From assembly GCF_004210375.1 (NCBI RefSeq), contig NW_027467782.1:38615771-38679770 (forward strand): a DNA stretch of 64,000 nucleotides. Reading direction: 5' to 3'. Positions 2,381-59,269 of this stretch are shown in pieces. The notes beneath the pieces were generated by a model. That model was not told the origin of the DNA, ran no database searches, and saw only the letters and a list, made by a program, of their open reading frames with translations. Both the position numbers and the translations under genes were made by a program. Each line of letters begins with the position of its first letter. Position 1 is the first letter of the stretch. The DNA is from Tachypleus tridentatus (Eukaryota; Arthropoda; Merostomata; Xiphosura; Limulidae).

Positions 2381-2382
2381 TG

Positions 2383-13320: not shown

Positions 13321-15243
13321 TTGTTAGGTACAAACTTGCATAAGAGGCAGGTGTGGGGATGCTTTATGACTTCCATTTCCATTAAATTTACTATTCCTGT
13401 CATTGTTACTGTAAAGCTACAGAAGCTATCTATCACTGCACCAATTTTGAACCATTGACTGTCAACTTTCTGGCTATTTTAATAAGGTGTAAATTTATTG
13501 TATTTTGATTTTTTTCTCACACTGTGTGATGTTTTTGCTTTACAATTGTATCACTATTATTTAAAGTTGTATAAGTGTGAGCCCAAGTGGTCCAGTCATT
13601 CATATTTTTAGTATTTAATAACTGTATTCTTCAGTTATGTATGAGAGAATGCAGGTGAGGTGAAGGGATCCATAGGGGTAAACATTATGCACATTTTTCA
13701 GAAAATAATAATAATATTGTTTTATATTATATTTAAATAGACATGAATTTAAGGTAGAGATCAAGGGAGTTGAAACCCCATCCCTTCTAGCTGTTTTTTT
13801 TTTTTAAGTAATACCTGTATCATTTAATGTTTTTATCTGTGGGGTCTTAACTCCTCCCTCCATTTCCCCCCATTCATTTAATTAGGAAAACAGTCAATAG
13901 TATTGAAAATAAATATGAGGTTTCAATATCTGTTTGATTGGTCTATTAATTACCTTTATTATTATTTATTTGAATTTACTTTATTTTGAATCTGTAACAG
14001 TCAGGTGTAGATTCAGCCATTAACTTATGAATACAATAATATGAACATCAACTGAATGTTTCCCTGGTAAATTATCAGGCCTTGGTTTTTATCCAGAAAT
14101 TAACAGTGTGCATGCATTCTAGACTTTATGGAGATTTGTTTTTATTAAAGGTAGCGTTATTTTTCTGAATTTATAATGCACAGTGGAGGGATTTAGACAT
14201 TTTCATTGTTGGTTGGTTAGCTTGGCATTTCATGGTGCAAAGCAACTAGGCTGTCTGCACCAGACATTTTGGTAATGAAGTTAGAAAAAATTACCTTTTT
14301 TTATCTAAGTGGTAATAAAAAACTTTATTTTAACCAAAATTTTGAAAAAATTTATGGTTATTATTTCTTACATCATTTGTAGCCCTTATATTTATGACAC
14401 TTGTAGCTCTTGTAACATATGCCTACTTTAAAATCTGTTTTTCATTGTTTGAAAGTTATAATGTCACAAGTGTTTTAGTACTGTTGATATCCAAAATAAG
14501 TAAAAATGCAAGTGACAAAAAGGAATTGAAAACAGACTGATGTTTGCAAACACTAAAATGTGAATAGAGGTGTAGACATGGTTTTCCTTTCAAAATATAA
14601 TAATTTATTTCAATTAAAGTTTAAAATGTTTGTCTGTTTTTGTATTCTAATTGATCACATTAGTAGAAATACAGATATAGATTTTAAGTTGTTCATTACA
14701 ACCTATATGAACTAATAATAATAGACTTTCTAATTAATTTTATCACTAATGACTTCTAACACATAGGTATAAATAATAAAAACAATGAATGTGATGTACA
14801 CTTATTAATTAAACTACTAGAAGTCTAATTAGACCCCCTCTTCATAAAAGAAATAGAGAAACTATTCTTGCTTTGACAGTTGTTGCTATAACAGTTGTTG
14901 AGAAAGTTTAAATATGCTTGGATATAGCACATAGACTATCATGTGTTGATAAAGTTAAAATATAGGTTGTTTTTTATAGCTTAGTAGTTTCTTTTCTGTT
15001 CCCTTTGTTGTGAATTCTGAATGTATTTGTGTATAAAATTATATTTTAAAGCTATAGAAATTTTCTTCAAAGAGAAAATATATGATAACTTTGCATAAGG
15101 TAAGTAAGCTTATACAGTTTAAAGATGGGTTGAACTGATAACAAATCTTATTAAAAGTTTAACATGATAATGAATGTATAGTGTTTGGAAAAGGTTTTGT
15201 CATCATCAGGTTTAATAATATACCTATACACTGAAATGTATGA
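13321..15243. other. Right part of unit A, no gene seen
   Basis: AT-rich non-coding DNA with a T run near 13793-13805. It has homologues in B (23122-25070) and C (41651-43490). No exon, RNA gene or transposon end could be recognised. Confidence 0.6.
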
Positions 15244-15550
15244 CTCATGGCTCCTATAATTAGAGTCTTTCTATATAGGGAATTGCAGACACCCATAGTA
15301 CTGTATCTACTGTGTCATTCCTCTGGACTCTCCAACAAGTATTCCATTCCCTTTTCTTCTAGTGGAGTAGAGGAGTCCTTTCCACTTCTTGAGTGTAGAC
15401 CAAGGAAGATTCCTCCTGAGTAGTTTTTGTACAATAAACTAAAATTTAATTTGTAGATTATGTGTACCCACTCAACAACAAGAGGGCTAGCATTGTTATT
15501 CTTACTGTGATACTGAACAATGATTACACTGTAATATAACAATCAGGATC

Positions 15551-16100
15551 CAAGGCACTTTCCTAAACATTTTTGCTCAGGTTAACTGCACTTGTTGCTC
15601 ACAAAATTCTTATGAAAGGTGTTTCCACAGGATATTTTCTGCCCAGATGGACTGCACTTGACATAATCTGTCTTAACCCAAGACACTTCCTCTGCATGTT
15701 TTTATACCAGTACTTGACCAGATCATATTTATACCAAAGGTGCTACCTCCTGGGTGTTACCAGGGGAGACCACTCTTGTTCATCAAATAGTTCTCATGCA
15801 AAGCACTTCCACTTAAAGATGTTTGCCTGGATGGACTTCACTTGGCATAATTCAACATATCTTATGGTGCTTTCCATGGATGTCTTTCCCTGTAGACCTC
15901 ACTTGCCCACAGTATTGTATATCTGAGGTGATTCTCTGGGCACACTACACTTGTTGATCAAATAGTTCTCATGCATGGTGCTTCCACTGGATGTTTTTAC
16001 CCAGATGTACTTCATTTGGCATTATTTGTTGCATTCCAAGACACTTCCCCTGGATGTTTTCTGCCTAGGCAGACTGTACTTGGTCTGTTCATGTACCCTT
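15551..16100 (+). repeat. Diverged minisatellite, ~60-bp unit, about nine copies
   Basis: Irregular repeats of roughly 50-65 bp each carry a core like GGTGCTTCCACTGGATGTTT, followed by a CCCAGATGGAC-like stretch and CACTTGGCATAAT. Some pairs share AGTTCTCATGCA. Copies differ from each other by 20-40%. The open frames across it (15573-15926, 15971-16162) are a by-product of the repeat: the repeated residues do not form a known protein repeat. Confidence 0.7.
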
Positions 16101-16826
16101 TTTATAAGTTTGTGTGGGTTAAATATCAATACATCTGTTTTCACTTTGTTATTTCTGTTTAACTGTCAGAAATGCATTATGTTTGCTTTTGTTTATATCC
16201 TTCTGTGAATTTGTAGAAAGTTATTAAATATCTTTTTGTATTTAATAAATACAACTATACATTTACAAAAATTAAAAACACTATTTGATATGTGCCAATC
16301 AATGAATTAAACTCACACTGCTTAATTTTTCTCGCCATTTATTTTACAATAATGAATATTTATAACAAGATATTCAATGAAATTCATAAAGATAGAAAAA
16401 TTATTGCTTTCTAAAAATCACATTTACTTCTGTTATATCTTGTTTTACTTAAAACATTTTATCAATCTTACACAATTTTTGTTTTTAAGGTAACTTTAGC
16501 ATTTCAATTCTAGAAACACTATATTAATCACTGCATTGAGCAATAAATTGCTAAAACCAAACTTGGTAACTTTGAACAAAACATCAGGTTCAATAAAATG
16601 TGTTTTTTTTTTTACAAAAATGTTTAGCTATAGGTAAGTAAGTAATAAATAAATGTAGAGCAGACATCTACTAGTGGTACAGATCATGTCTGTGGTAGGG
16701 CACTTTGTAAAACAATCTTGAAATTATCTTTAAGAAGAATCTGGGTGACACAAGCCACTGCCAATGTTCAGTTACACACACTACAGTTAAGTTTGATACA
16801 TTGTAACTTTATAGGATTTCTACTTA
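16101..16826. other. Non-coding stretch, no feature seen
   Basis: AT-rich DNA between the minisatellite and the last pseudogene exon. On the minus strand this would be the 3' flank of the ZC3H15-like pseudogene. I found no clear AATAAA signal close to the stop. Confidence 0.5.
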
Positions 16827-33114: not shown

Positions 33115-33173
33115 TGGACGTCAGTATGAGCAATTTTCTAACATCTAAATTGAATTTTATTAGGTGTCAGTTA

Positions 33174-33520: not shown

Positions 33521-34254
33521 TTGAAATTTCACACGCACACATTTATATTCTTGTGGGATCACTGACCATTAACAGGGGAGCCAAAGGTGAAAACATTTTT
33601 AAATTGTTCAGTTACTAATTTTGCTTATGCTTGTGATTTTTTTGGATAAAATACAAATAATTTTCACAATGAAATGTTATTACGTAAATTTCAAATATTT
33701 GCACATTTTATAGAAATGTAATATAAAAAAAATTTTCACCATTTCAGTTTTAATTTGATAAAAATACGTATATACTGAATATACTTTATATATGTATATA
33801 TACAGTCATAAACTATAGCAGTTTATAAAATAACTTTTAAAAAATATTTTAAGTGTAATATTTTTATCATTTGAATTATCTATGATTACACAAGATAACA
33901 TCTACACACTCACATAATTTTGAAAGGTATTTTTTAAAGCATTTAATTATTTTCCTATTGTAAATAATATGATATGATGATGGATTTTTAATGAATCTTT
34001 GTAGGCATTGGAGCCTTTTTAACAATAAAATATTGTTTTCACTGCATAATGCTCCTGTCTTACTGGTAAATATCAGTTATTCTCTTTGAAATGAAACATC
34101 TGTTTTCAATTGCCTAACTTTAAACTTCATACAACGTTTGAACCACTTACTTAATCAAATAAAATTCTGGTTCTTATTCCATAGTATCAACCATTATTTG
34201 TATCTTGATAAAATTATTGCAAATATTAACAACAAAGGCACATATATATAAATA

Positions 34255-34991: not shown

Positions 34992-35380
34992 TATGTTTTG
35001 AATCCCATTGGAAAATAATGGTGGTGTAAAGGTTTAAAATTATTTAAGTATGATTATTTACACACATTGAAAACCTTCAGTAGTCTAATGTATTTGATTG
35101 AGGTAAAAAAGCTAAAAGAATTAGGAATCTTTTTTAGAGAAATTTATAATTTGAAAACAAGAAGGCTATTTTAACCTTGATATAAGATTTTGATTTGGGC
35201 TACCATTGCATTTAATAGCATATAAGGCTCGCTGGCATACAACAACTACAGTAGTGGTTGGAATACTATTAATGTAATTAGTTTGTTATAACAACAGTTT
35301 TTATGATATGAAGTTTGTGAATGCTAACTTAGAAAAGGTATTCACTCCATAACAACTGTTATACAAGTGTTCATTGTCTG

Positions 35381-35493
35381 TCCCTAGTAGAACAGAGGTA
35401 AGTCTTTGAATTTATAATGCTAAAATCAGGGTTTTGATTCCCCTTAGTGGACACAGCAGATAGCCCGTTGTTGCTTTGCTATAACAAAACAAA
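35381..35493 (+). repeat. tRNA-derived SINE fragment, type 3, unit B copy
   Basis: Counterpart of 2383-2500, with tail TTTGCTATAACAAAACAAAC. Confidence 0.55.
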
Positions 35494-38062: not shown

Positions 38063-38775
38063 ATGAAATATTGGTCAGACTTGCGGGGGTCAATTATCTG
38101 TTATAGCCGTTCGGTTACTCCCGAAGGACAAGGCGCTGAGGTCATGGTAGCATTGCAAAACTGGATCAAGTAATAGACAATTTACCGACTTTGTTCGGTG
38201 AAGTACTCGTGTAATGTGCGTTCTGATTACTGATTTACAGCATATAATGTTACATTTCACAACGTTCACACAGTGTTACATAACAACGTTCACACAATGT
38301 TACATAACAACGTTGATTATTCGCTATGAAGTGACTGCATTTTGAATTTCATAACAGCGTTATGGTATAACGTGACCAAATCACAACCAAATTGTGGCAA
38401 CACATGACGTTGCAACTCTCATATATGGGACACTGGACATTACTTGGTTAGAGGGGAAAACATTTCATTCTGAAATTCATTCCTAATTATGTAACATCAA
38501 TTTGCCCCACCCCGACGCTGCGCCTGGGACAGATACACCCGTACCCCCCCCCCCCCTTTCCCTAGCTACGCCACTGGCGAACGTGTAATCTTTTAAGCCA
38601 AAATCATGAACGGTGGAACTTTCTATTTAAAACACCAATAAAAGTATTTTAATTAGTAAAGAAAAATCCTACCAGGAATAATATATTTTGTGTGATAATC
38701 CTCCATATGAAACAAGCATCTCAACGTTACTTGTTTCAGATTACCCTTAGTAACTACAAGTACTTCTCATTACTT
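38063..38775. other. Unique flank of unit B with a short tandem repeat and a transposon-like end
   Basis: Not found elsewhere in the window. 38249-38316 holds about two and a half copies of a 28-bp repeat (ACAACGTTCACACARTGTTA). 38541-38575 has a run of about 14 C followed by CCCTAGCTACGCCACTG. That string resembles the end CAGTGGCGTAGCTAGGG seen on several cut-and-paste transposons. The opposite end was not found here. No gene is seen. Confidence 0.4.
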
Positions 38776-39010
38776 TCGCCCGGCATGGCCATGTGGTTAA
38801 AGCACTCGACTTGTAATCCAAGGGTCGCGGGTTAAAATCCTCGTCGCACCAAACATGCTCGCTCTTTTAGAAGTGGGTGCGTTTTAACGTAACGGTCAAT
38901 CCCACTATTCGTTGTTAAAAGAGTAACGCAAGAAATTAGCGGTAGGTACTGATGATCAGCTGTCTTTACCTACCTTACATTGCTAAATTAGGGGACGACA
39001 AGCGTAGATA
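38776..39010 (+). repeat. tRNA-derived SINE, type 1, cut by the assembly gap
   Basis: Begins GCCCGGCATGGCCATGTGG, with anticodon loop CTTGTAA (Thr-like). The B-box region reads GGTTAAAATCC, one or two changes from consensus. The body runs to GACAAGCGTAGATA and stops at the N run, so the contig ends inside the repeat. Confidence 0.88.
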
Positions 39011-39510
39011 NNNNNNNNNNNNNNNNNNNNNNNNNNNNNNNNNNNNNNNNNNNNNNNNNNNNNNNNNNNNNNNNNNNNNNNNNNNNNNNNNNNNNNNNNN
39101 NNNNNNNNNNNNNNNNNNNNNNNNNNNNNNNNNNNNNNNNNNNNNNNNNNNNNNNNNNNNNNNNNNNNNNNNNNNNNNNNNNNNNNNNNNNNNNNNNNNN
39201 NNNNNNNNNNNNNNNNNNNNNNNNNNNNNNNNNNNNNNNNNNNNNNNNNNNNNNNNNNNNNNNNNNNNNNNNNNNNNNNNNNNNNNNNNNNNNNNNNNNN
39301 NNNNNNNNNNNNNNNNNNNNNNNNNNNNNNNNNNNNNNNNNNNNNNNNNNNNNNNNNNNNNNNNNNNNNNNNNNNNNNNNNNNNNNNNNNNNNNNNNNNN
39401 NNNNNNNNNNNNNNNNNNNNNNNNNNNNNNNNNNNNNNNNNNNNNNNNNNNNNNNNNNNNNNNNNNNNNNNNNNNNNNNNNNNNNNNNNNNNNNNNNNNN
39501 NNNNNNNNNN
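39011..39510. other. Assembly gap of exactly 500 N
   Basis: A round-number N run is a scaffolding placeholder and says nothing about true distance. The left side ends inside a SINE; the right side begins inside block D'. Open frames that span it are artefacts of translating N. Confidence 0.98.
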
Positions 39511-40475
39511 TACTGTCATCAAATTGTACAATTTTACTATTTAGTGAATATGGTAGGAAATTGCAAGATATTGTGATATTGTAAATATTTATTAAGTAAT
39601 GTTCTAGAATGTTTATTTTGTTCAAATAATGAAGATAAATAAATTGTTTAACTAAAAATGGCAACTGTTAAAAAGATGAAAGCTGTCATGTGAAATTAAG
39701 GGTAATTTAAAAATTAGTGGAAAAAAAACAGAGTGAAAGAAAAAATTAAAAATGATATCACGTTAGAATAATGTTGTGGTTGAAAAAAATTAAGGAGTAA
39801 GCATGTGCTTTTCTTGTATGGGTTATAAAAGGTGTGGTACTAATGGGTTGAGTGTAATTGATCAGTTCAAGGAATTCAAGGAATTATTTTCCACAAAGTA
39901 GGGCACACAATTCTTATCTAATGAGATTATTAGGGATTTAGTAACAAAAAAAGAAGAGGAACATTATTTAATGTTGTCCTTTGCATAATTTTTGCTTCTT
40001 TCATAAGTACTCTTAACTGGTGGTAATAAATACAAACTGTAGATGTTTAAATCCTTAAACAGAACTAATTTACAAAAATTGTAAACTTGTTAAGCATTTT
40101 TAAGAAGAAACCCCCCACTAAAAAAGTAAGTTCTAATACAGAAAATCAAGATTTTCTAACTTGTTTACAATACCACTTGGATGGAAAGTACATAAGTTAT
40201 AAAATATTTCTATTTAATGTTGTTTTAAGCATTAAACACACAGAAAATACATTTTTTGTCATTTAAAACTTGACAGTCAGACATGTACAGATCATATATA
40301 AATTTGTAACTGTAAAAGGTGATGCATTTGGTTTGTTCTCTCAAAACATCTCAGTGATGGTATACTTAACATGTGATGAAACTTGTGGTTACCATGAAAC
40401 ACATTCATCTATTTAAAAAACTGATACTGACACTCATAATGTATAAATATTAAAACAGACTTATTTGTGAGCTTT
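39511..40475. other. Right part of block D' (inverted D), no gene seen
   Basis: Reverse complement of about 21991-22949, nearly identical. It is non-coding and starts abruptly at the gap. Confidence 0.7.
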
Positions 40476-41650
40476 CTGATATTTTAGTTATTAAACTTTC
40501 TATATTCCAGTTGGTAACAAAACATTTTGTTGTTATCCCATTTCACAGTGTCAGGATGGCATCTGCATAGTGCTTGATATTGGTGGTGTTGCACAGCATC
40601 ATCCTTATCATACAGTTGAATGTTTCTGCAGAGTTGACTTGGCACCTGCTGAAATTGGTAAATCCATCTAGTATTAAAAATGCTGTCTTCTCTGTAAATC
40701 CTGTCTTCATTAGGATTTGGCAATAACCTTTACTGAGGTTGATCTTTGAAGAGAACCTGACCTTATAATTTCTAGGTTGTCCATAGTTTCAGAGTTGAAC
40801 TTCATCACAAGATTCAGCTTTTGGAAATTTATTTAGAAACAGTTAACCTATCTCTAATTTTTGTGATTAAAACTGGTAAATGGTAGGCTAAATTTGAAGG
40901 CTTAACAATTCCAGCTTCCAACATTGCCTCAGCTTCCTGCTTTGTAAGGTACAGTGGAGCGCCATTAAACCGCGAAATTGCTTAAGCCGCTGTAGCAAGT
41001 CTTGTCCCAGAATTTTTGATGTATTAAATCTACTACCTGGCTTTCTAAAGTTTCTCACACTCTCCTTGTCGTTGACACTGACATGACGAATATGAGCGAG
41101 GATTATCGCGGCTCACCGCTAATTTAAGAAAGTGCAAAAACGTGGCTTACAAATTTAATCCTGGCTTTATAACTTCAAGGAGATATTTAAAAAGGATTTG
41201 CTTTAATTTGGGAAATAACTAGAATATATTACAGTAGAAATTGACCGTTAATCTACCTTATCCGCTCTGTATGCCAGCTTTATGGAGGCTGCCATTGTTA
41301 CCGAATCACACCTCTCCATACATTAAACTTAATCGCGGTAAATCCGTGAAAAAGTGATCAATAATTAAAGTATTATTTTAAATTCGATAATCCAATATTT
41401 TTATGGAATTGTATAAATATTAGCCACACACCCAATAGACATCACTTCAGTTTCTGAGCTGTTGGCGACTTCGGCTTTTCAGTCACAAAGGTTTAATCCG
41501 CGGACCTATTAAGCCGTGGTTAACAAGGTTGACTCCCCAAATACTGCATCTTAACGGCACTCCACTGTATTTCATTGCATAAGGTATCTGAAAGGGCTTC
41601 ACTTTAGCTGGATACCATGTTGTTGTGTTGCACAAGGCCTATCTTTCCTG
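40476..41650 (-). pseudogene. Ty3/gypsy reverse-transcriptase fragment, D' copy
   Basis: Inverted counterpart of 20819-21990 with the same stops, the same lost aspartates and the same MITE insertion (40952-41567). In a few hundred bases on each side of the MITE I count only about two substitutions against D. Its 5' end is cut at CAGG (41647-41650, read on the minus strand), where unit C begins. Confidence 0.85.
40952..41567. mobile_element. Pogo/Tigger-like MITE, D' copy, 616 bp
   Basis: Same TA site as the D copy. By hand alignment about 30 substitutions and several one-base indels separate the two. Many fall at CpG/TpG or CpG/CpA positions, and they cluster toward the end at 41450-41567. 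Confidence 0.85.
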
Positions 41651-44600
41651 ATGATGACAAAACTTTTTCCAAACACTATACATTCATTATCATGTTAAAC
41701 TTTTAATAAGATTTGTTATCAGTTCAACCCATCTTTAAACTGTATAAGCTTACTTACCTTATGCAAAGTTATCATACATTTTCTCTTTGAATAAAATTTC
41801 TTTAGCTTTAAAATATAATTTTATACACAAATACATTCAGAATTCACAACAAAAGAAACTTTACAAAGCTATAAAAAACAACCTATATTTTAACTTTATC
41901 AACACATGATAGTCTATGTGCTATATCCAAGTACATTTAAACTTTCTCAACAATTGTTATCATAGCAAGAATAGTTTCTCTTTCTTTCTTTTATGAAGAG
42001 GGGGTCCAATTAGACTTCTAGTGGTTTAATTAATAAGTGTACATCACATTCATTGTTTTATTATTTATACCTGTGTTACAAGTCATTAGTGATAAAATTA
42101 ATTAGAAAGTCTATTATTATTAGTTCATATAGGTTGTAATGAACAATTTAAAATCTATATCTTTATTTCTACTAATGTGATCAATTGGAAAATAAAAACA
42201 AACATTTTAAACTTTAATTGAAATAAATTATTATATTTTGAAAGGAAAACCATGTCTACACCTCTATTCACATTTTAGTGTTTGCAAACATCAGTTTGTT
42301 TTCAATTCTTTTTTGTCACTTGCATTTTTACTTATTTTGATATCAACAGTACTAAAACACTTGTGACATTATAACTTTCAAACAATGAAAAACAGATTTT
42401 AAAGTAGGCATATGTTACAAGAGCTACAAGTGTCATAAATATAAGGGCTACAAATGATGTAAGAAATAATAACCATAATTTTTTTCAAAATTTTGGTTAA
42501 AATAAAGTTTTTTTATTACCATTTAGATAAAAAAGGTAATTTTTTTCTAACTTCATTACCAAAATGTCTGGTGCAGACAGCCTAGTTGCTTTGCACCATG
42601 AAATGCCAAGCTAACCAACCAACAATGAAAATGTCTAAATCCCTCCACTGTGCATTATAAATTCAGAAAAATAATGCTAACTTTATTAAAAACAAATCTC
42701 CATAAAGTCTAGAATGCATGCACACTGTTAATTTCTGGAAAAAAGCCAAGGCCTGATAATTTACCAGGGAAACATTCAGTTGATGTTCATATTATTGTAT
42801 TCATAAGTTAATGGCTGAATCTACACCTGACTGTTACAGATTCAAAATAAAGTAAATTCAAATAAATAATAATAAAGGTAATTAATAGACCAATCAAACA
42901 GATATTGAAACCTAATATTTATTTTCAATACTATTGACTGTTTTCCTAATTAAATGAATGGGGGGAAATGGAGGGAGGAGTTAAGACCCCACAGATAAAA
43001 ACATTAAATGATACAGGTATTACTAAAAAAAAAAAAAACAGCTAGAAGGGATGGGGTTTCAACTCCCTTGATCTCTACCTTAAATTAATGTCTATTTAAA
43101 TATAATATAAAACAATATTATTATTATTTTCTGAAAAATGTGCATAATGTTTACCCCTATGGATCCCTTCACCTCACCTGCATTCTCTCATACATAACTG
43201 AAGAATACAGTTATTAAATACTAAAAATATGAATGACTGGACCACTTGGGCTCACACTTATACAACTTTAAATAATAGTGATACAATTGTAAAGCAAAAC
43301 ATCACACAGTGTGAGAAAAAATCAAAATACAATAAATTTACACCTTATTATTAAAATAGCCAGAAAGTTGACAGTCAATGGTTCAAAATTGGTGCAGTGA
43401 TAGATAGCTTCTGTAGCTTTGCAGTAACAATGACAGGAATAGTAAATTTAATGGAAATGGAAGTCGTAAAGCATCCCCACACCTGCCTCTTATGCAAGTT
43501 TGTACCTAACAAATATTTTGATCATCTGGATATTTGGAATAACTAGAAACATTAATTTCAATTAGTTTATTATTAACATGACAACTGATTCAATCATAAT
43601 TTTGATTAATTGCTAAAATAATTATTACAAACACTTATTTTGATTGGTTAAATGACTCAGTTCTTCTGTAAGCAGATGCATGTTAACATCACATTAGTAA
43701 AGAAATCACAAGTTTTACTAATGAAGAAAATTAAACTTAAAATGAAAAACATTTTATAACATACAATACATAAGGCAAGACATGAACTAGTAAATGTTGT
43801 TACTAGTATATGGATGCAGGCAGTGTGTATGGGTGAGAAGTTTCACTGATCTCTCAGTTCCCACTAAAGTGAATACATACAAGTTTGATCCATAGTTCAC
43901 ATCCCCACAAAGATAGAATACATTTAACTGCAAGAAATGTGAGGTGAAGAACATGTGAACTGCTTGCTCCAAACCTGAAAAGGAGAAGGCTGGGCCCAAA
44001 TGAGGTTGAAAAGAAGAAAACTACCCAAATGAATGGGTTATTGAGAGGAGATAAGAATGGATTTCCCCACTATCATGAGGAATCCTCCCTCTATTGTATC
44101 TTGTAGAATCAGTGGAGTGTGGTCTATGGACTGTGAATGAGTAGAAGCAAACATTATCTAGTTATTCATAGAGAGAAGAGCACAAATTATCATAGAGTGA
44201 AAAAGAATTGAGGTTTGTCCAAACAAACAGGAAAGTCCTGAAATGGAAAACATGATTTAGGGCAATGAAGTGGACACTGTGGGGAAGAATTTTAAATTGT
44301 GGATTATGAAGGGAAAATGGTTTAGCACATGATTAACAATTTTGAAAAATAAAATAATTATATGTTACTAGTAGTAATAATTGCAACTTACAAACAATCT
44401 AGGCTAAACATACCTAGTTAAATTACTAATAATGAACTAACAAAGCCATGAAATCTGTTGAGACCACAAAGTATGTAAGATTAATGTACTTGCAAAGTGA
44501 TTAAATGTATCTAGTAATAACACAATTAATAATCAACATCTCATTTACAATTCATTTAAAATAACTTAGGTGATAAAGGACATATAAATATCTAACTTAC

Positions 44601-45648
44601 CAAAATCCATACATTAATGACATGAAATACTCAATTCTCCCATGTGTAAATAAGAGTAAAGCCACACAAATGATATCTGAGTCACAACTACCATAGGTAT
44701 ATCAACCAGATTTGAAGTGTAGTAAAGTTTATCAACATGTACCGGTCCCCTGGTAGAACTGGTATCAACAGAAACAAAAGTATGAGAAGAGCAATTCTCT
44801 CCAAAAGCAAACAACTTGGAAGCATGAAAAGTAGTGGAAAACTAAAACTCTTGAAATGGTGTGGAATATGACAGGCTAAAATAAAAAGTGTTAAAAACAA
44901 AGAAAAACAGAGTCCAAATGTCTTCTTATTGATTACATTCTTACTTAGAAACATTGTTTTACTGAAAAGAAGAAGAAATCAGTGGCTAAACCCATGAATC
45001 TAATTTCCTTAGAATTAGTCTGTACATAACGTTGAACTAAATTCCTGGAAAATCTTACCAGTAGCATGTTCAGCTATAATGGGAATTTCTATAGTCAATA
45101 CACTGATCATATATTACTGCAGCAGTAATTTGGTTTGTCAACATACTAGATACCCAGAGCTCTCATAAAAGTGAACAAGTGATCTTAATGTAAGGCTCAG
45201 GGAAAAAGAGGAAAAATACCAAAGACAGGAATTTTGTTTCTTTTGTTGTTGTGGTTTTACTTCTGAAAATATTTTTGACTATTTGAAAGCTGCAGGAATA
45301 TTCTTCTATGATATCATATGTTTATTCTGGTTTATCAAGTGCAGTATGCAATAATTGATTGAAATCCAAATTATTTATTAGATAAAAATTCATCTTGACC
45401 AAAAAATATAGAATTTAAACTTTTTTATATTTGAAATGAAAGATATAAACCCTTAACAGAATTAGATTTATCTACATTAATTTTCTAAAAGGTACAACTG
45501 AAGATTGCCATTTAAACTCTTAAAATGCTTCAGTAGTCTAACACTAATAATGCAAACACAGAAAACCATACAGTTGATTTAAAAGACCTTTACACTTCAC
45601 ATTTTTAACAGATAATAGATGCATAGATAAAAAAATAAACTACATTAC

Positions 45649-48600
45649 CTTCATCTCTCAAGTCTACATAAATACTCTTCTTTTCACTCTTATTTTCAAC
45701 ATCATCGTGGGAAAACTTGCATTTGTCACCTTTCTTACACTGTTCTTACTTATAAAAAACATACAGTGCAGATTTAGGATCAGTTCCTGAAATTAAAATA
45801 GTTATATCACCTTTCTGCAAGAGATGAATATAACTGAACTGTAGCCATGTTGAGAGTAACAAGATAAAACACTTCAATGCTGTGGTGTGTGATTTACATA
45901 AAGCAGACTTTGAACACTTGTTTTGATTCACCCTAAGAGTATCAGTGACCTAACTATTGAAAACACACAAAAATTATGAAAACTAATTTAATATTAAAGA
46001 TAGCTATGTACAGTATAAGAATTCATGCTTTCAGTTAATATGTTCACAATACTTGCACCACACACTTTTTACATAAGTTGTTTTAATTTTTAAAGTTATA
46101 AAAACAGATAAAATGTACCAACATGCATTTTTAAAATGTATAAAAATAACATTCAATGAAGTTACAGTAATATAATAGCTTATGCTTTTTGTTTTGAATG
46201 AGGTGTAGCTATGTAAATAATTTCATTGTACTTATAAAGCCAATTATTGTTGGTTAGTCACAATTATCTACCTGATTTATGTCTCTCTAAGTGTTATAAC
46301 TGCAGAACTCATATGGAATAAAACTGTATTTCTTTCCAACCACTCCTTAAGAAAATATTTAACTCTCACTGATAAAGAATAAATATTTATAATTACAAGT
46401 TATACATTAGTACAATTTTAGTGCCAGACCTTAAACAAATAATGAAAAATAAATATTTAGAACTTTAAATGGGTGAAATTGTAAACCTGATGTTCCAAAC
46501 TTTAGAAATTCTTTTATATATGACTAATGCTAAAAAATCGTCACTTATGTCAGGGAAATGTATCTCTAAAAGTAGAAAGCAAAGAGGTTCCATCTTTAAA
46601 CACATTTATGACTACATATCAAGAGCAATAGTAATATGGTAGAATACATCATGATGTATTTCAGTTTCTATATAATACATAAGGTATAAAAACCACAGTA
46701 ATTCTGGAAAGTATTTTAACTTTTTCTTGAATAACTCAGTTTGAAAGATTCAACTTATGTTATTTGCTATTTCTAAGAAATAATATCTTAAAAACCTTTA
46801 TCACCAACTTAGACAGCCAGATCATTGATGTATCCAAAGATAATCTGTATTAATAACACTTTATGTAGTAATTCTTAAAAGTCTTCAGTTAACTATAAAA
46901 TCCTATGTTTTTTAGTACTATTAAACCTCACATTGACATATTCTCCTGCTCATTTTACACCACTTCAAAACAAGCAAAAGCAACACTGGAAAAAAAGAAA
47001 AAAAAGAAAAATCTTTGTATTTATATGTTTACAAAAACATGCCATATCAACATGTAGGGAGAGGTTAAGTGATTAACAATATATCATGTATTTCGTGATG
47101 ACAAGAAACCAACTTGAAGTAAAAATGTATTTCAGAACAACTGTTGCAATCCCCTTCTTGTTAATCTGAAGATGACCTGAGAAGGTCAAAACATTGTTTT
47201 CAGTTTTATTTTGGTATAACCATTTGTCCTGAGATACATATCACGTACTTGTTATGTTGAAAGTCATACAACAATAGGAATATACAAATTTCAGAATTTC
47301 TTGCTCACACTCTCTATCAAATTACATAGAAATAACTTATGGGAAAGCTTGTCTAATCTAGCATTTGTATTAGGTAAAAATAAAATAAACCTTTATACTT
47401 CATACACAAATTATACTGCACAACAATTTTTTTAAAATGTTTTGCTTCCTGAAAAGGTTTTGCTGATTGTGACAGGTATCTGGTGGGTATGCACAAATAT
47501 AGTTTTGGTTTTGCTTCATCAGTAGAAACTTTGAGAAATAGACAGCTAACTGTTTACTGGCAATAACTTATTTAATTGCGTTTATGTTTCTAATATGCTA
47601 TTAAGTTCAACATAATTAAAAGTGTTTTGCTCCTGATTTTGTTTGTATTCAATGTCCAGTGCATCACGTTGCAGTGTCCAACAGTAGTCAGCAAGCATTG
47701 ACAAATTCCAGTTGCCCTGATATTGTTTTCCCATTGTAGCAAAACTGAAGATTTCAATGAAACTGTACGTAATGGGCAAATGTGGATGTGATTTTCATTA
47801 TCAGCAGCCAAAAATCTATAAGGAACACCCAACAGTGTTCAAGATGCAAAAACTTTGTTGTGCAGTGTTATCTAACATTAACTTCATTCTCCACAAGCAA
47901 GGAAAGGTGACAGAAAAAAACCTATTTCTTAATATAAAGAGTAGTATTTTACCTTTCTCATCTTTCTGTGTTGTTACAGATTTTAATGTCAAGTTCAGGT
48001 CCTCAATTTCCTTCTTTTTCTTCCTACTTGTTGATCTACCTAAGGTAATGTGAGTAGAGTGTGATTACTCTTATATTACCAACAATTTGTTTGAACCTTT
48101 GTATCAATAACTTTAATAAACATGGCATACTATTTCATTGATTAAGTAAACAAATCATGCATTACAAAGATAATTAGAGTTTTAAAATATTCAAAACATA
48201 TTATGTAATAAATGTTCATTAAAAATAAAGAAAATGTGACAGCTGTTAAGATGAAAATTACACTTTATGAATTTGACATTAATGTGGTACTTATAAGATA
48301 ACTATATGGAAGTATGATTTTACACAGCCTTTCATACTGTTTTTCTTCATACTTTTCTACAGACAATGTTGATGATAATTATGAAATTACAAAGTGTTAA
48401 AGACATGTTAAAAGGTCAACAGAAAATTCTGCAGTTTCAAACACTGGTAAAAGTTAAGGTAGCCTTGGATACCTTGTTTGACTAATATTTTGAATGCTAA
48501 TGCACTGTCTTCTCATAAGTTTATAAGAACTGACCACACCTTTTCAGCATGATATTAAAGCAGTAAAATGAGGTAAATAACACCCAGAATTTGCATTTAC

Positions 48601-51175
48601 CAGACCCAACTTAAATTCATCTGATCTATTTAGGATGTGTGTGTGTTGGTGTGCATCACCACTGAATATACCCCAAATCAGTCATTTTCTGACCTCAACA
48701 AAGTATTTGGTTATTTCAAAATCAGATTTGATACACTAGCCAAAGAATACTATAAAAAAACAGAAACAAGAAACAGTCTCATCTTTGCCTTACACACCAT
48801 CTCATGTGCACCAGACAAAACAATATCACCAAACAAGAAGCATCACAATGTAATTGAAAAAAACAATTAGTCAACATGACTGTAATCCATCATTACAACA
48901 CAACCTGTGTGAGAAAATTAGTCACTCACACAATCAGCAGAAATTCACAAGTAGCATGGAAATTTCTAAGGCAGACATAAAAAGACAGCTTTCTGTGCAA
49001 GACGTGAACTGCCTCTAAAAAGATTAATTTTTGATTACTGAATATTGAAGATGGTAATAATTGGACACACAAGTTGATTATTTTCATAAAATTAATTGAT
49101 TACTTTGCATGAAACTAACTCGTGTATCAATTCTCATTCTGATTACGAAATTTTGAAATTTAACCATGAATTTTGCAACAACAAGTTATTTTATGGTCTG
49201 GCCTAAAGCTAAGCAATGTAAATCTAATTCAGATAGTCAAACTGAGAGAAAAATAGTGCCACCATCAACAAAGATAACCATTTATTTTAGTTTCTGTTCA
49301 AATACATTAAAATTACAAATGGTTGATATAAATAAATCAACTTTTTTTAGACTGTTTGCAAATTTTTAACACTGCTTCCACAGGCCAGACACCCAGGATT
49401 TGTGCTGAATGGCTATCCTTAATAAATAACATCATTCTAGAATGAGCTAAAACTCACTTTTAGAGTTTTCTGGTTGAACAAAATCTCCTACAAAGTTTTA
49501 TGAAAAAATATGCAGATTTAGTAATGCTATTGAAAGTTTTTGACTCCCATAGTACACAGTAGTAAACTTGGAAGATGTGTATGTTATGTTATTAACTATT
49601 TGTTCTCATTCTTGCTTTTTGTTTTCAGAGTAGGTACAAAGGCCATGACCTTCACATCAGTGGGATAATTCTCATCTAGCTATTTCAAAAGTTTGTTCTT
49701 CAATCTATCTTTCATTTCTTTAAACATCACTGACTAACATATCAGTGCAAGTGTAACTTTCTCTGGCAAAACTTGTTGCATATTGTTGGCATATGAGAAT
49801 AGTTTTGTATCATCAGATTTAATTGTATTTCCAGTCATGTTCATAAGATCATCTGGATCTCTTGGAAGTAACGTAGTACAAAGAATCCTTAATCCTGCCA
49901 TGCAGAATGCAAGCAATCACCTGCTCTTTTCAAGAGCACTGAAACTTGATGCTTTTCATCAAGCTTCTTGATTTGGAAAGTTTAATATTGTTGTGGATTC
50001 AATACCAAATTGAATCGGCATTGCTCCTGTGCCACGTTGAAATACCACAACAATGTCTTGCGTTTACACTTCAGTTCTTGAATTATCTGCATCATTCATT
50101 CAGTGTCACAAACTCTATGGGATCCTCAGAAGTACTGCTACACATTTCATCTTCATCACTCTCCAGTGGAATAGATGAATCAGTCCTTCATTTTCTCTTT
50201 CTTCATACTTTTAATTTACCTTGCAGTTCTTTCACACCTGTTTTTTATGCAATTTTGACCTCTAAGTCTGAACCATTACATCTACACTGTCACTTTCTTC
50301 TTTTCCTGTATCAATGTTACTTTATCAATACAGGATCAGCACACTTAATCACTGAATGTTGTAGCATGTTGACATCTGTTTTGTGGCCAGCTGTAGATCA
50401 AATTTTCACAAAGTGTGCAACAGTTATCTGTATTTTGGCCAATCAGGTTTTGGTAAAGGTATCAACCAATTAACTAAAGATCCAAAGTGACTGCAAAGTG
50501 CAATTATCTACCCATGCTGTTTTTGGTCTTGTATCTGAATTTGTTTTAATGAAAAACTATTTAATATTATAAAACTAGTTTTCATAGTTTAAAACTTGCA
50601 CATAAAGAGTCATTAATACAATTAAGTTATAAAGAGAAGTACTTGCCCTGTTAAGTGCTCTTGAAGCTTTACTAGTTGCTTCACGTGTACAAGTGACAGT
50701 AAGAATAAAACCATAATAACCTGTAGGACTCACTCAACCACTAGAAATACCTTTTCTTATTACAATACAGCCACAATTCAAAGCACGTTTTCACCATTGC
50801 CTTTAAAGTCTAAAAATTGTAAATTTACAATTTATGTAGTCCCTACTTATAAGTTATATACTAATAATTTCATTTTAAAATGTTGTCCAAATCTACTTAC
50901 ATAATTCGGCAGACACTACTTGTAATGAGAATGAACAATTATTAATTATGTGGTTAACTAACTCGTTTTCGTATTAACCCTCACAGACTAGCATTAGGCT
51001 TAGCAGCTACAGTAAATTCAAGTTACAGTACATTTTTACAAGTACAAATATTGCACTGGTTAATATTTACAATGTCCTTGTACACGACAATAAAATTTAA
51101 ATATGTTTCACTTTGATAATTTTTTCTTCTTGTAAATTTTCTTTCCTGATTCGTTTGGTTTTTCCTTGGGGGCAT
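45649..51175 (-). pseudogene. ZC3H15/DFRP1-like pseudogene, copy C (5' exons only)
   Basis: Exons 45649-45786 (zinc finger, same internal TAA), 47953-48039 (KKKKEIEDLN) and a possible first exon starting at 51175 with MPPRKNQ. Splice sites and sequence match copy A. As in A, no 3' exons follow on this strand: the DNA downstream is the C/D' join. If C is the other haplotype of A, this is the same locus as copy A. Confidence 0.7.
47415..47866. mobile_element. 453-bp inverted-repeat element, unit C copy
   Basis: Counterpart of 8985-9437 with the same termini; it lies in intron 2 of copy C. Confidence 0.55.
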
Positions 51176-51854
51176 CACTTCACATAAATAAATCTATAAA
51201 CATTTTACTGCATCATATCTTTTAACCCCAACGTATTGAATGCAATATTTTGCTTGCAAATTGTCAGTGACCTGCGTAGTAAGCTACATGTGTTATCGAA
51301 CGACTTCAACAATTCCAAAAAAGTGCCAAGCGAATCTGCAAAAAATTCTCGTCATATTAAGAATATTAAAAAGCGTACGTATGCTTATATTCTTGTCATT
51401 GTTAGCAGAATGGAATATTTTGTAATTCTAACAGTATTATGAGGTTAAAGGTGACAAATAGGACTTGGATGATATCACAATAGTTGTCTCCAGATCCTAA
51501 GGTAAGTAATTAATGTGATTTTAATCTGTAATGTTTAATATTGCATTAGTACTAAAACTGGTACTCATGCCCACGAAATGTGTAAAACTAAAATTCTACG
51601 TCGGATGTTGATCAAAGCTGGTAGTAGCGGTAGTTGTGAGTTTATTATTGCAATTACAAACTATTAATTAAAGTACTTCAAAGTGTATATGAGATTGGGA
51701 TAAATGGCTCATTTATTATTTGAGTTCATAATGTTTTGTGATACAATAACTTGTAAGTTACTCAAAATTTCGAATAGAAAGACTTACATTTTCAAAGCAG
51801 TATAGTTTTGTAATAAACTTTTCAAATTCGAGTGAAAATTCGTTGGACATCAGT

Positions 51855-51985
51855 TTGTTTGTTTGTTTGTTCAGAATTAAGCACAAAGCTGCACAATGGG
51901 CTATCTGTGCTCTGCCTACCATGGGCTTGAAACCCTGGTTTTAGTGGTGTGAGCCTGCAAACAAACCGCTGTACCATTTGAGGCT
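51855..51985 (+). repeat. tRNA-derived SINE, type 2, unit C copy
   Basis: Orthologous to 4879-5010, with TGGACATCAGT on both sides (51844-51854, 51986-51996). Confidence 0.85.
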
Positions 51986-52518
51986 TGGACATCAGTATGA
52001 GCACCTTTCTAAAATCTAAATTGTATTTCATTAGGTGTCAATTAAGTCCTAAAACGTAACCTTAAGAATATTAGCAATAGAAATAATACATTTAGCAGAT
52101 TAAGAATAAAATATTAGTTCTTAAAGCTATAGTCTTTGATTGACAATGTAGTACCAAAGAAACTGCTGTTGTGGCATATAACACAACTCATTAAGGATGT
52201 TCATTCGAAGCATTCAATTTCACACACACACACACATATATACATACATTGTTTTGGGATCACTGGCCATTAATAGAAAGCCAAAGGGTCTGATATTAAT
52301 GAAGATGAAAAAAGTTCTTAAACTGTTCAGTTACTTATTTTGCTTATGCTTGTGACGTTTTTGGATAAAATACATATAATTTCCACAATAAAAGATTATT
52401 ACTTAAATCTCAAATATTTGCGTATTTTATACAAATTTAATATAAAAACATTTTCACCATTTCAGTGTTGATTTGATAAAAATACACATGTACTGATTAT
52501 ACTTTATATATGTATATA

Positions 52519-53215
52519 TTTGTTTGTTTGTTTTGAATTTCGTGCAAAACTGCTCGAGGGCTATCTGCGCTAGACATTCCTAATTTAGCAGTTTAAGACT
52601 AGAGGGAAGGCAGCTAGTCATCACCACCCAGCGCCAACTTTTGGGCTAATATTTTACCAACGAATTATGGGATTGATCGTCACATTATAACCTTCCCACG
52701 GTTAAAAGGGCGAGCATGTTTAATGTGACGGGGACTCTCAAAGTAATTACAGGTATTAGAAAATATTTCTTCTGTCTGGTGATAAGGTGGAGTGAGAAAC
52801 TTCGAATTCAGAAATAATCCACGAAGTACAAATGACTCAATAAAGGAAACTGAATACTGAATACTACATGTTGTCTTCGTTTCTTTGTATCAGAAACATT
52901 ACGCGAAAAGTAACACAACAAAATATGTTTTGTTAGGTGGATAGACTTAAAAGTACATTATTTTGTTATTTTGCTTCTCTTGTACTCCTGGAAGGTTCTA
53001 CATTTATGTTATTTCCTCTGAGACCTGAATATCCACCTCGGTGTTTGCCTTATATGGAGACTGCTACTCCTTTACCAACGAATAGTGTGATTGACTGTAA
53101 CATTATAAAGCCCCCATGGCTGGGTGGGCGAGCGTGTTTGGTGTGACCGGGATTCGAACCCGTGACCCTCGGATTACGAGTCGAACACCTTAACATGCTT
53201 GGCCATGTCGGGCCA
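52519..53215 (-). repeat. Composite type 1 SINE, unit C copy
   Basis: Orthologous to 3651-4346, including the internal foreign segment and the TATATGTATATA flanks. Confidence 0.85.
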
Positions 53216-53391
53216 TATATGTATATATACAGTCATAAACTTTCGCAGTTTGTAAAACAATTTTAAAAATATTTTTAGCATAATATTTTAACAATTGAGT
53301 TATCTATAATTATATAAGATAACGTGTACACTCTTGCATAATTTTAAAAGGTAATTGTTTTTATACATTTAATTATTTTCCTACTGTAAAT

Positions 53392-53696
53392 TGTTGTTTT
53401 GTTTTTGAATTTCGCGCAAAGCTACTCGAGGGCTACCTGCGCTAGTTGTCCCTAATTTAAGACTAGAGGGAAGGTTGCTAGTCATCACCACCCAATGCCA
53501 ACTCTTGAGCTACTCTTTTACCAACGTACAGTTGGATAGACCATCACATTATAACGCCTCCACGGCTGAAAGGTCAAGCATGTTTGGTAAAAGACTAACC
53601 TAGGGTTGGCAATAGGTAGTGTTAAGTCGTTGCTCTTCCGAGACCCTCAGATAACAAGTCGCATGCTTTAACCCACCTGGCCATCCCGGGCCACCA
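53392..53696 (-). repeat. tRNA-derived SINE, type 1, unit C copy
   Basis: Orthologous to 3171-3475, with ACTGTAAAT target-site duplications at 53383-53391 and 53697-53705. Confidence 0.87.
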
Positions 53697-54377
53697 ACTG
53701 TAAATAATATGATATGATGGTGGATTTGTTAATGTATCTTTGTATGTATTGGAGCCTTCTTAACCATGAAATATTGTTTTTACTGCAAATACAGGTAAAT
53801 ATCAGCCATTCTCTTTGAAATTAAACATCTGTTTTCAATTTTCTAACTTTGAACTTCATACAACTTTTGAACCACTTACTTAATCAAATGAGATTCTGGT
53901 TCTTATTCCATAGTATCAACTATTATTTGTATCTTGATAAAATTATTGCAAATTTTAACAACAAAGACACCATGTATAAATATGTTTGGAATCCCATTGG
54001 AAAATAATAGTGGTGTAAAGGTTTAAAATTATTTAAGTATGAATATTTACACACATTGAAAAACCTTCAGTAGTCTAATGTATTTGACTGTGGTGAAACA
54101 AGCTAAAAGAATTAGGAATCTTTTTTTTTAGAGAAGTTTATAATTTGTAAATAAGAAGGCTATTTTAACCTTGATATAAGATCTTGATGTGGGCTACCAT
54201 TGCATTTAACAGCTTATAAGGCTCACTGGCATACAACAACTACAGTAGTGGTTGGAATACAATTGATGTAAGTAGTTTGTTATAACAACAGTTTTTATAA
54301 TATGAAGTTTGTGAATGTTAACTTAGAAAAGGTATTCACTCCATAACAACTGTTATACAAGTGTTCATTGTCTGTTC

Positions 54378-54488
54378 CCTAGTAGGACAGAGGTAAGTCT
54401 TTGAATTTACATTGCTAAAATCAGGGCTTTGATTCCCTTTGGTGGACACAGCAGATAGCCCGTTGTTGCTTTGCTATAACAAAACAAA
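54378..54488 (+). repeat. tRNA-derived SINE fragment, type 3, unit C copy
   Basis: Counterpart of 2383-2500. Confidence 0.55.
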
Positions 54489-57170
54489 CGCATTCTGTCT
54501 GATATGTCTAGAATATTATCTACCATCCACTCACCATATTGTCTGACTGAAATTATTTATGAATGAAATCATTAGATCATTAATGCATATAATAAACCTT
54601 TGAAGTCCAAAGTACATGTAGTTTTTATATTAATTAATGCATTCAGAGGGATTTTATGTTTCTAGCTTGTTACGTTACATTCTCAAAGTATATTTGCAAT
54701 TTTTCTTCATTTTGTTTCACACAACTATTTAAAAGTTATTATATTTTATCAGAATATGTCACTTTTATGACTGAACCTTTTTATATTTATTATTCAGGTA
54801 AAATAATAACATTTGGTCAATCTACAATCTCTTAAAGGTGAAAAAAAAATTATATCTGAGGTAGCTCATATCCTTATGTTTTCATTATCAGCTTTGAGGG
54901 TTATTTTTAGGAGTCACAAGACAATGGAAAAATTCCATACATATAAAAAATTTGCTAATGTGTTCATGTGCTATGTAGCAGCAGTAGTGGATTTATCAAG
55001 TGGAAGCTGACATATGCTCTCCACAGAGAGCCATTGTATGGGTTTTCTCTGCACAAAACCACAGCTGGCCACTGTACAATGTTTTATCTGATTAGACAGG
55101 ACTTAGTGTACAAACAGTGCTGGTATGTATTTTTTTTCTGGTTATAATCAGTTATGTTTTTTGAGTAGTTTTGATACATGCTTTATTACATAGTGGGGTT
55201 TAACTACATTGATTTGGTGATTATGTTGTGAATTTCATTTCTGAAGAAAGGTAATTATAGCCTTTAGATGTTGATGATCTTCCTTATCTGGTAAAACATA
55301 ACTGGAGTAATCATGTTGTATATTTTGTTATTCAGTGAGGTATGAGTTTAGTGCATCATGTAGTCATAGAATTTGATTTTGGACCTTTTGAGATGTAAAT
55401 GCAGTGTTTTGTTATCATGAAAATTGTAGTCAAAAATAGTAATATCAAGACGTTTTCAAACATTTGTTAACTTTTCATAAGTCTATACAATCACTGTCTT
55501 CAGAAATTTTACTCATAAAAAAATCTAAAGGAACTCAACACTGACAGTTTTTATGCCCCTGTAAAAGTGTTTTATGTGCATAACATCAAGGTCATAAAAG
55601 CAAGAATTTGTTTATCCTTTTTAATACTACTAAAATACTGGGGTATAAACATTTGATAATTTTTAGATTTTATAATGTCATTAAAACTTTTAATTACTTT
55701 TCCATTATCTACAATTTTTACCCTCTTGTAAGTTACAAAAAAACAATGTGCTCATTACCTTTGAAGGATTTTCAAAATGACAGGGTTTATAATTTTGTTG
55801 TTTTCTGACAATAATTATATTTGCTCAGGCTGCAAGCTAAGAAGTGATGTACTAAATTAATTTTAGTTCTCCTATATTGGGTTTATGAAGAACACTTGAT
55901 TATGAGTTCTAATAAAAATTGCTAGGTTTATCAGCAGCTTTATTTAAAACCTCCAGATACCTACCTTGTAGCTTAATAATGGAAAATGTCACTACCACAG
56001 CAGCTTCTTGGATATAAAATATGGCAATTGTCAGTCAGGTCTTCAAAGAAATCTATGCAGTCTTGATAACATTCTGTAAGCCCTGACATAATGTGATTGG
56101 GATTAACTTGTTGCCACTTGCTGGTAATATCAGCAGCAGGTTACCAAAGAGATGTATTGTTCTTAGTATACATATACAGTAAATGCCATTGAAATAATGG
56201 ACTTTGTGTAATTTCAGATTACTGTACCTATTTGAGCAGCTGTTTTATGTGGGTGAAATTCTCCTGCAGGGTTAAGAATGTAAAAGAACAGACCAACATT
56301 TACTATTATGTAGTATATATAGCTGCAAATCTACAATATGACTTAAATGAGTCTTACATATTATAAATGATCGAATCTGATTGTAAGCACTTGCCTGTAA
56401 TGGCAAATTCATTGCTTCTGACTTTAACCCTCTGTTTTTAGAAATATTGCTTGAGATGTCTCTGAACCAAATAGTTTAGAAATAGAAGATATTTTATTTT
56501 TACCTAAAACATTGGATGAATTTTATTTCTTAAAAAAGTTATAGAAGTTGCTGTTTAAGAGATGTTTTCTTGTAGGAAAGACAAATAGAAAGTTCACTAA
56601 CATAAGTTTCAGTACTAAATGATGAAGAGAAAAAAACAAACAAACATGCAAATCAGTAACATATTGTAATGATGCTAGGAAAACACTAGGTAAAAAAATT
56701 AATTAAAGAAAAACAAACAAACATGCAAATCAGGTACATATTGTAATGATGCTAGGAAAACACTAGGAAAAAATCAATTAAAACAAACAAAATATAGGAG
56801 TTTAAGAGTGTTTACAAGAGAATAACTTATTGTTTAATTTTAAAAGTATAATAAAGAGAACAGACTACTAAAATTCATTATTGTACTGATAAATTGGAAT
56901 AGCTGATGCAGCTCACTTACCATTTCAAACAATACAATGTTCCTCTTCTACAAGATGGTTGGTGTTTAACCTTCCAGTCCTCTTTACTTCAAGATTGATA
57001 TCTGTAATGCTAAATATTTAGCTCTTCAAAGTAGTGCATCTTTCTTTTGATCATTTAGTAAAAGTGTGAACAAAGAAAGTAGGCTCATATCAAGAATTTC
57101 AACTTACATTCTTTGTCCAGTGAATAAGGTCACCTCATTACCTTTGTTCACTGACAGCAATGGTCATCAG

Positions 57171-57499: not shown

Positions 57500-59269
57500 G
57501 GTTATAAGATTATTGGAAGGGGAGTCACCTTCCATAAAACGTCAGGTGACTTTCCTTCTGGTTTTTTTCTTTTCTCTCTCCTTGCACCACTACAACACGA
57601 TTGAGACTCACTGGACCTATTTCTCACTAAAAACTTGTCTAATAAGATTTGTTTCTGCCTGCATTTTAAAATGTTTCAGAAGTAAGACATGGCATTGTCA
57701 TTGAAAAGGTTTATGCTGCAGTTTGCTACAGCTTTGTCAGGGTGAAATTTTTCCACAAAACTTTGCAACTCTCCCTATTTTCCACACTTTCCTTGATTAA
57801 TGAACTAGGAACACCCTCCCTTCCCTCCTCCTCATCTGAAGACACTTCCTCAGTGTTGCCTTCTGTTGCTGCTCCTTCTGAAGGTCTTGGAGTTCTTCCA
57901 TGGTGAGCTCAGTGTTGTGGTCTTCCACCAACTCCTACACATCATCACCACTCACATTCAAGCCCATACACTTGCCTAGTGAGACAATATCCTCGACAAT
58001 AGGCTCAGACTCAAAGTCTTCAAAATCTCTATCTGCTACTGAATCTGGTTGCAATTTCTTCCAGGTTGCGTTCATGGTCCTCAAAGACACTTCCTTCCAG
58101 GCTTTGTCTATGATCCTCAAGCAATGGAGATTATTAAAGTGATTTTTCCAGAACTCTCTGAGGGTTAACTCTGTGTCATACTTTACTATTAGCCCTCCAC
58201 ATGACATTTAATTTTCTTTTCAGAAAATTATTTTTTAAAAAAACAACTGGGTTCTCAGAATGGTAAACAAGCAAAGGCTTAAGTTTTAAGACCCCACTTG
58301 CATTATTACATGACAATAGAGTTAGCCTGTCCTTCATTGGCTTGTGCCCTAGCAGTGACTTCTCCTCCTTGGTGACGTAGGTTGTCTTTGGCATTTTCTT
58401 ACAAAAAAGGCCTGTCTCATCACAGTTGAACACTTGTTCGGGAATAAAACCCTCAGCTTCTACATAGTCCTTAAATTCCCTGACAAATTTATCAGCAGCA
58501 TCTTTGTTAGAATGAGCACCCTCCCATGTCTCACGAAGCTATGTATGTCACTTCTCTTCCAATATTTTTCAAAACACTCCTACTAGCCTTAAAGACATCA
58601 CTTGGATCAGCACTCGTTCCAGAAGTATTTTTCAGGAGGTCAGCATAAAACTGCTTTGCTTTCTCACAAATGATGGTCTCAAAAATGCTATCACCAGTTA
58701 ACTGTTTTTTGTTTGCCCAAATCAACAACACTTTTTACACCTCTTCCATTGTTTGTGATCTTTGTTTCGTAAGCACTGTCACTCCTTTTGCAACATCACC
58801 TCCTTTATTTTTCAGCATGGTGCAGACCACAGACTTTGCCATTCCAAACTGTGCAGCAAGGTCAGACAAGCGAACACCACTATCGTACTTCGTTACAAGA
58901 TCTTTTTTCTCCTTTATTGTGGCTCTTACAACGTTTCTTTTTGGTTTGCCGCTTTCATTATCCTTCTTTGACTTCATGATGACTTATTTAATCAGAATAT
59001 TTAGAAAAAAAAACGAAAACGTTCACAACAGATTTTAGTGGGGGTGTGGACTGAGCGACATGTGTGAGCAAAATGTTTTGGGCAAACTTGGCATGGGCGA
59101 AAATGGTCGAACGGTCGTTCAGCTCATCAGTCGGGCTATTTCAGGGGTTCAGGCTAAACAACTTTGTTCGGGAACCGAGTTTATGTTCGACAACCAAGAC
59201 ATTTTTCTCAAACAATATGTTTGAAAACCAAATAGTTCAGGAATGGAGTCATTCAAGAAGATACCACTG
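57500..59269 (-). pseudogene. Tigger (pogo-group) transposase remnant
   Basis: The minus-strand start at 58977 gives MKSKKDNESGKPKRN, then a psq/CENP-B-type helix-turn-helix with LSDLAAQFGMAKSVVCTMLK. A stop follows MEEV, in place of a codon in the family's MEEVEKVLLIW. After it come LLIWANKKQLTGDSI and the CENP-B-like second DNA-binding half. A frameshift near 58530 follows, then VFNCDETGLF with the first catalytic Asp. At about 58180 the reading jumps from MWRANSKV to DTELTLREFWKNHF. This skips the part of the family that carries the second and third acidic residues. The C-terminal tail persists to about 57500. The 5' inverted repeat ends CAGTGG at 59264-59269 with TA outside. It is inactive. 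Confidence 0.92.

Follow-up and report, generated by a model that had tools for sequence, protein, structure and literature searches.

A gap-bounded inverted near-copy in the Tachypleus tridentatus assembly belongs to a family of many almost identical copies and may be a further copy rather than the other allele

The stretch analysed here, called the window, comprises 64,000 nucleotides of the Tachypleus tridentatus assembly GCF_004210375.1 (contig NW_027467782.1, positions 38615771-38679770; below C19, a sequence of 69.8 Mb in a searched assembly of 2.17 Gb and 205 sequences). It holds the end of one contig (the left contig) and, beyond a gap of 500 N, the beginning of another (the right contig), which in reverse complement is a near-copy of the left one; this inverted near-identity is far beyond chance and larger than first noted. 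The original prediction, made from the letters alone, took the right contig for the second haplotype of the left one. With moderate confidence we favour another reading, in which the right contig is an additional copy of an amplified family, lying between arbitrary gaps, and not the other allele. Likeness does not prove that it is the other allele, because the DNA belongs to a family of which one chromosome carries many nearly indistinguishable copies. The features on which the argument rests are listed here; negative positions lie to the left of window position 1.

1-15210, forward strand: A, the left-contig copy, inverted partner of C (self-BLAST); the match continues leftward to C19:38547084
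15211-20818, forward strand: 5.6-kb segment that the right contig lacks; its junction there is 15193-15210 / 20819-20823
20819-22951, forward strand: D, 97.34% identical to D' at 41650-39511, inverted (self-BLAST)
23155-38064, reverse strand: B, an older inverted copy of A (self-BLAST, pieces of 79-95% identity)
37811-39010, forward strand: T, end of the left contig (probe mapping)
39011-39510, no strand: scaffold gap of 500 N immediately left of the right contig (sequence)
39511-43010, reverse strand: inner end of the right contig (D' and the start of C), near-identical to the copy at 36.65 Mb of C19, not to the left contig
41647-56866, reverse strand: C, inverted partner of A (self-BLAST)
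50166-73477, reverse strand: R1, first 23.4-kb tandem unit of the right contig (self-BLAST; the window ends at 64000)
73582-96930, outside the window, reverse strand: R2, second 23.4-kb tandem unit (self-BLAST)

Flanks of 30 kb to the left and 60 kb to the right of the window were fetched, then smaller pieces further out. The right contig measures 86,745 bp (C19:38655281-38742025) and has a 500-N gap at either end: the join in the window, described beforehand as such a gap, is exactly 500 N, and the second gap (C19:38742026-38742525) closes the contig exactly at the end of its match to the left contig. By self-BLAST, positions 1-15210 align inverted to 56866-41647 with 98.73% identity over 15,273 columns, in agreement with the 98-99% first estimated for A and C. 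With the flanks this becomes a 32-kb block (-16721..15210 to 73581..41647, 99.16%); the inverted match resumes past an extra 23.4-kb unit on the right (-29999..-16550 to 110379..96930, 99.3%) and, past a 61-bp satellite, extends to the right contig's final base (38547084 to 38742025), its left-contig end lying 68.7 kb beyond window position 1. A loss of matching to the left of position 1, at the point equal to 57170, had been named as an outcome that would speak against allelism; no such loss is seen, and the point marks the end of B-type homology, not of matching between the contigs. The right contig is thus contained, by self-alignment and in inverted orientation, in left-contig sequence 38547084-38638721, except for the tandem unit and the satellite together with 473 bases of unread sequence leading up to the latter; the 5.6-kb segment of the left contig, with no counterpart in the right, is a further length difference, and 29 kb of the left contig (38556771-38585770) are known from satellite matches alone. 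A (76-236) and C (56630-56791) do have in common the 77-bp duplication reported for them, whose second unit has no counterpart in B: one related unit is present there (37650-37730, 92.6%) and a second was not found. D and D' are indeed an inverted match; the near-identity ascribed to them did not hold, the value being only 97.34%. An arm end proposed at 38545771, where a probe had no mirror match, was set aside as uninformative, since the right contig stops about 110 bp short of the mirror position.

Copy number was studied with nine probes of about 1-3 kb, eight from the locus and its neighbours (E, F, G, H, S3, S2, S1 and T) and one, U, from the 36.65-Mb copy; E is the start of the next contig (from 38742526), S1 and S3 were taken from the right contig, and S2 and H from the left. 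The best-scoring candidates were scored for each (E 26 of 26, F 40 of 12649, G 40 of 726, H 35 of 2594, S3 40 of 3854, S2 40 of 2166, S1 40 of 206, T 40 of 4815, U 40 of 103), and most copy counts are floors. Full or near-full-length matches, self included, number 25 for E, with all candidates scored, and at least 11 for F, at least 19 for G, at least 26 for H, at least 20 for S3, at least 37 for S2, at least 40 for T and at least 33 for S1, for which five more cover 934 of 1001 bases (best 40 of 206). C19 holds 34 of the 40 S1 matches (best 40 of 206), 31 of the 40 for T (best 40 of 4815), 23 of the 26 for E (all candidates scored) and 21 of the 26 long matches for H (best 35 of 2594). A segmental duplication is a stretch of at least 1 kb that is at least 90% identical in two or more places, and this is what the locus probes find. 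A further probe 500 kb to the left (L041) has seven whole-length places, three of them on C19.

When 214 listed places are mapped along C19, the order E-F-G-H-S3-S2-S1-T appears repeatedly, in either orientation. All eight modules are present at 33.16-33.28 Mb, all but F among those listed at 31.46-31.58 Mb, and inverted partial runs occur, among the matches listed, at 34.09-34.20 and 28.67-28.74 Mb; modules of the next contig run the same way as the sequence starting near 38486000. Family modules lie in both orientations over about 1-45 Mb of C19, with fewer listed on C3, C4, C8, C9 and others.

Some of these copies are as close to each other as the two contigs are, or closer. Substitutions amount to 0.07-0.10% between copies separated by 1.7 and 20 Mb (3 of 4184 and 3 of 4194 between those at 31.5 and 33.2 Mb, 4 of 4188 between those at 8.16 and 28.70 Mb), against 0.10-0.26% by the same measure between left and right contigs (4 of 4185 and 11 of 4193). 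With right-contig probes, the left contig comes 16th among the non-self matches for S1 (best 40 of 206) and fifth for S3 (best 40 of 3854). Site comparisons were made at S1, S2 and S3 with eight loci each, picked by likeness to the probe (for S1, nine rows with D of the left contig added; a badly aligned row from C4, with about 290 differences, was kept). Among these chosen loci the left contig is the nearest relative of the right contig at S3, the second at S2, where the 33.25-Mb copy is slightly nearer (10 of 4163, against 12), and a far one at S1, where the nine rows hold no minority-state site common to the two contigs.

Several observations weigh against the right contig being a further copy of the family. 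With the left-contig probes S2 and H, the right contig is the top non-self match among the matches listed; at S3 the left contig is nearest to it of the eight chosen loci, at 4 of 3912. Minority-state sites common to the two contigs number 7 at S2 and 5 at S3 (tandem unit included), in both cases more than for any other grouping that includes either contig. The choice of loci by likeness to the probe biases the ranks, and consensus noise leaves few informative sites. Lastly, an 87-kb contained contig lying between gaps beside its match has the classic look of a haplotig.

The inner end tells a different story from the body of the contig: the right contig is a mosaic, most of it close to the left contig and its inner end close to copies such as that at 36.65 Mb. 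D' differs from D of the left contig at 43 of 1995 sites, and from the copies at 36.65, 12.65 and 38.34 Mb at 2, 2 and 3 of 1995. In 500-base windows over 39511-43010 there are 0-2 substitutions relative to the 36.65-Mb copy and 3-15 relative to the left contig; past 43010 the affinity is mixed up to about 44.5 kb, with a patch at 44.0 kb that resembles B (0 differences in 498 sites relative to B, 2 in 482 relative to A), and left-contig-like thereafter. Substitutions between the contigs accordingly reach 1.7-3.4% in the two innermost two-kb bins (1.9% over D as a whole) and stay at 0.00-0.30% in 14 two-kb bins from 46 kb on; for C against A they are 0.10-0.45% per 2-kb bin from 44 kb on. The 36.65-Mb copy likewise lacks the 5.6-kb segment, by its letters. 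Elsewhere the S2-S1 spacing was taken as a distance only: among the matches listed it is 12.2-12.4 kb, as in the left contig, at 31.5, 33.2, 30.8, 8.6 and 7.5 Mb, 6.1-6.7 kb at ten places besides the right contig (6.4 kb), and 7.0-9.8 kb at four.

The two contigs also differ in their repeats. The 23.4-kb unit is present twice in the right contig and once in the left. Taken pairwise, R1 and R2 differ by 29 of 23,274 substitutions and R2 and the left unit by 36 of 23,278; in a joint alignment of 23,249 sites the differences are 42 (R1-R2), 34 (R1-left) and 52 (R2-left), and no pairing within the trio is favoured (6, 5 and 5 supporting sites), while 374 sites separate the three together from the 36.62-Mb copy. 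Read by eye, the tandem junction (73477/73582) has little homology, and R2 closes with a short extra repeat. The span of the 61-bp satellite is very different in the two copies: 110852-117489 (C19:38726622-38733259) in the right contig and, seen as search matches only, scattered over about 29 kb (38556035-38585298) in the left, where none of the matches listed falls between about 38568300 and 38581700. Tandem repeats of other kinds occur farther to the left on C19, a 40-bp repeat filling nearly all of the 3 kb at 38365771-38368770 (L040) and several others lying at 37615771-37618770 (L042).

At the gap itself, the right contig starts at 39511 within D', as had been noted, and not with U. Of the 31 T places listed on C19, 22 have U beside them when a simple criterion of distance is applied, the present locus being scored as a miss. 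Because the right contig starts in this way, and because T beside an inverted S1 is found, among the matches listed, only here, the gap probably stands for missing sequence, or else the right contig is placed wrongly. No direct join of T to the next contig (38742526) could be demonstrated: the 36.65-Mb copy goes on into U, and where its fetched sequence ends there is no match to the beginning of that contig. An S1 flanked by S2 in both orientations, with T following, is also found at 35.3, 37.8 and 18.9 Mb among the matches listed.

In the reading we favour, a segmental-duplication family whose unit measures roughly 120-170 kb would have been amplified mainly on C19 in both orientations, its copies arising by duplication and being kept alike by conversion or by recent origin. 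Both ends of the right contig lie inside multi-copy modules, where the assembly may have broken, and scaffolding may then have placed it between two 500-N gaps beside a relative; that it is a separate copy is what we infer from these observations.

False duplication is a strong rival, to which we give a substantial chance, short of an even one. The right contig would then be the second haplotype of the left locus (heterotype), or the same locus assembled twice through read errors (homotype), scaffolded as extra sequence. Containment, the gaps at both ends and the shared sites at two of the three sites are what stands of the second-haplotype prediction and all point this way; the two-copy state and the unique closeness that it implied do not stand. 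The indels also favour it. In the 32-kb block there are 93 substitutions (0.29%) and 113 indel events totalling 175 bp, of which 91 are single-base and 82 fall in homopolymer runs of four or more; of two further blocks, one has 36 substitutions and 84 indel events, 67 of these events in such runs, and the other 21 substitutions and 47 indel events, 32 in such runs. Much of the loss of identity is thus probably assembly consensus error, which would give an excess of indels of this kind; among seven copy pairs other than left and right, indel events outnumber substitutions in four. According to PMC9516828, a false duplication is marked by half depth, gaps between the pair, discordant pairs and one-copy k-mers; the mark examined here was the gap between the pair, and it is present. 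The paper on purge_dups (PMC7203741) suggests that a tool working without read depth makes false joins because haplotypic and repeat duplication look the same to it. Against a false duplicate, the inner 3.5 kb fit another copy, as does the lack of the 5.6-kb segment; the extra 23.4-kb unit, the satellite span and the equally close copies elsewhere also speak against it.

That the locus is a true palindrome, local and near-identical, with its outer arm kept alike by conversion or with a recent inverted duplication behind it, is a narrower form of the additional-copy reading and seems to us doubtful. The neighbour is a very close relative over much of the right contig, the arms are more than 99% alike (99.16% and 99.3%), and inverted runs lie near forward copies at 33.16-33.33 and 38.74-38.93 Mb among the matches listed; yet the centre is a 500-N gap, so that no sequence joins the arms, T lacks its frequent continuation U, and the order and orientation of the right contig are without support. 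We regard as unlikely an assembly chimera, compatible with the other readings, in which the inner 3.5 kb of another copy was joined to a left-like body: the change of nearest relative near 43 kb and the B-like patch beyond it would fit, but conversion also gives patchy mosaics, and the junction without the 5.6-kb segment is present in the 36.65-Mb copy too. Also unlikely in our view is an ampliconic C19, possibly sex-limited or otherwise hemizygous, with a unit of about 120-170 kb spread in both orientations over about 1-45 Mb and some copies on C3, C4, C8, C9 and others, where conversion or very recent spread would keep the closest copies 99.7-99.9% alike in substitutions; if C19 were hemizygous, a second haplotype would not exist.

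Three of ten listed open frames scanned against Pfam carry transposase domains, and the other seven gave nothing.

34252-34818, forward strand: open frame with a DDE_3 transposase domain, in B (PF13358)
58176-58535, reverse strand: DDE_1 transposase fragment, in the region originally assigned to Tigger (PF03184)
61982-62476, forward strand: DDE_Tnp_1_7 transposase fragment, in the region originally assigned to piggyBac (PF13843)

ARAGORN, in its bacterial setting, found no transfer RNA, and Rfam gave nothing at the gathering threshold. Apart from this locus, a hemocyanin family has nine places matching one part of it, on C13, C2, C7 and C10; the three exons compared with solved structures come closest to hemocyanins of chelicerate type, with best relatives 1lla/1oxy/1ll1 and 3ixv, none near identical, which we take to be Limulus and scorpion hemocyanins.

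Taken as an allele pair, the region would serve heterozygosity estimates or be purged, and taken as a palindrome it would serve as evidence for arm-to-arm conversion; both uses are unsafe. Because duplicated blocks of recent origin and high likeness are numerous on C19, contig order, copy number and variant calls there need depth-aware checks.

Among known systems, the locus resembles an intrachromosomal cluster of segmental duplications in having blocks far longer than 1 kb, more than 90% identical, in many places and both orientations; it differs in that one chromosome dominates and some copies lying megabases apart show at most 0.1% substitutions. With haplotigs and false duplications, as PMC7203741 and PMC9516828 present them, it has in common a contained redundant contig and a gap between the pair, whereas here the DNA is a multi-copy family and the inner end a mosaic. 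The ampliconic palindromes of the human Y (PMC3723533) likewise have inverted arms more than 99% alike and multi-copy modules; the present locus, in contrast, has a gap at its centre, and the frames scanned in it gave transposase fragments only.

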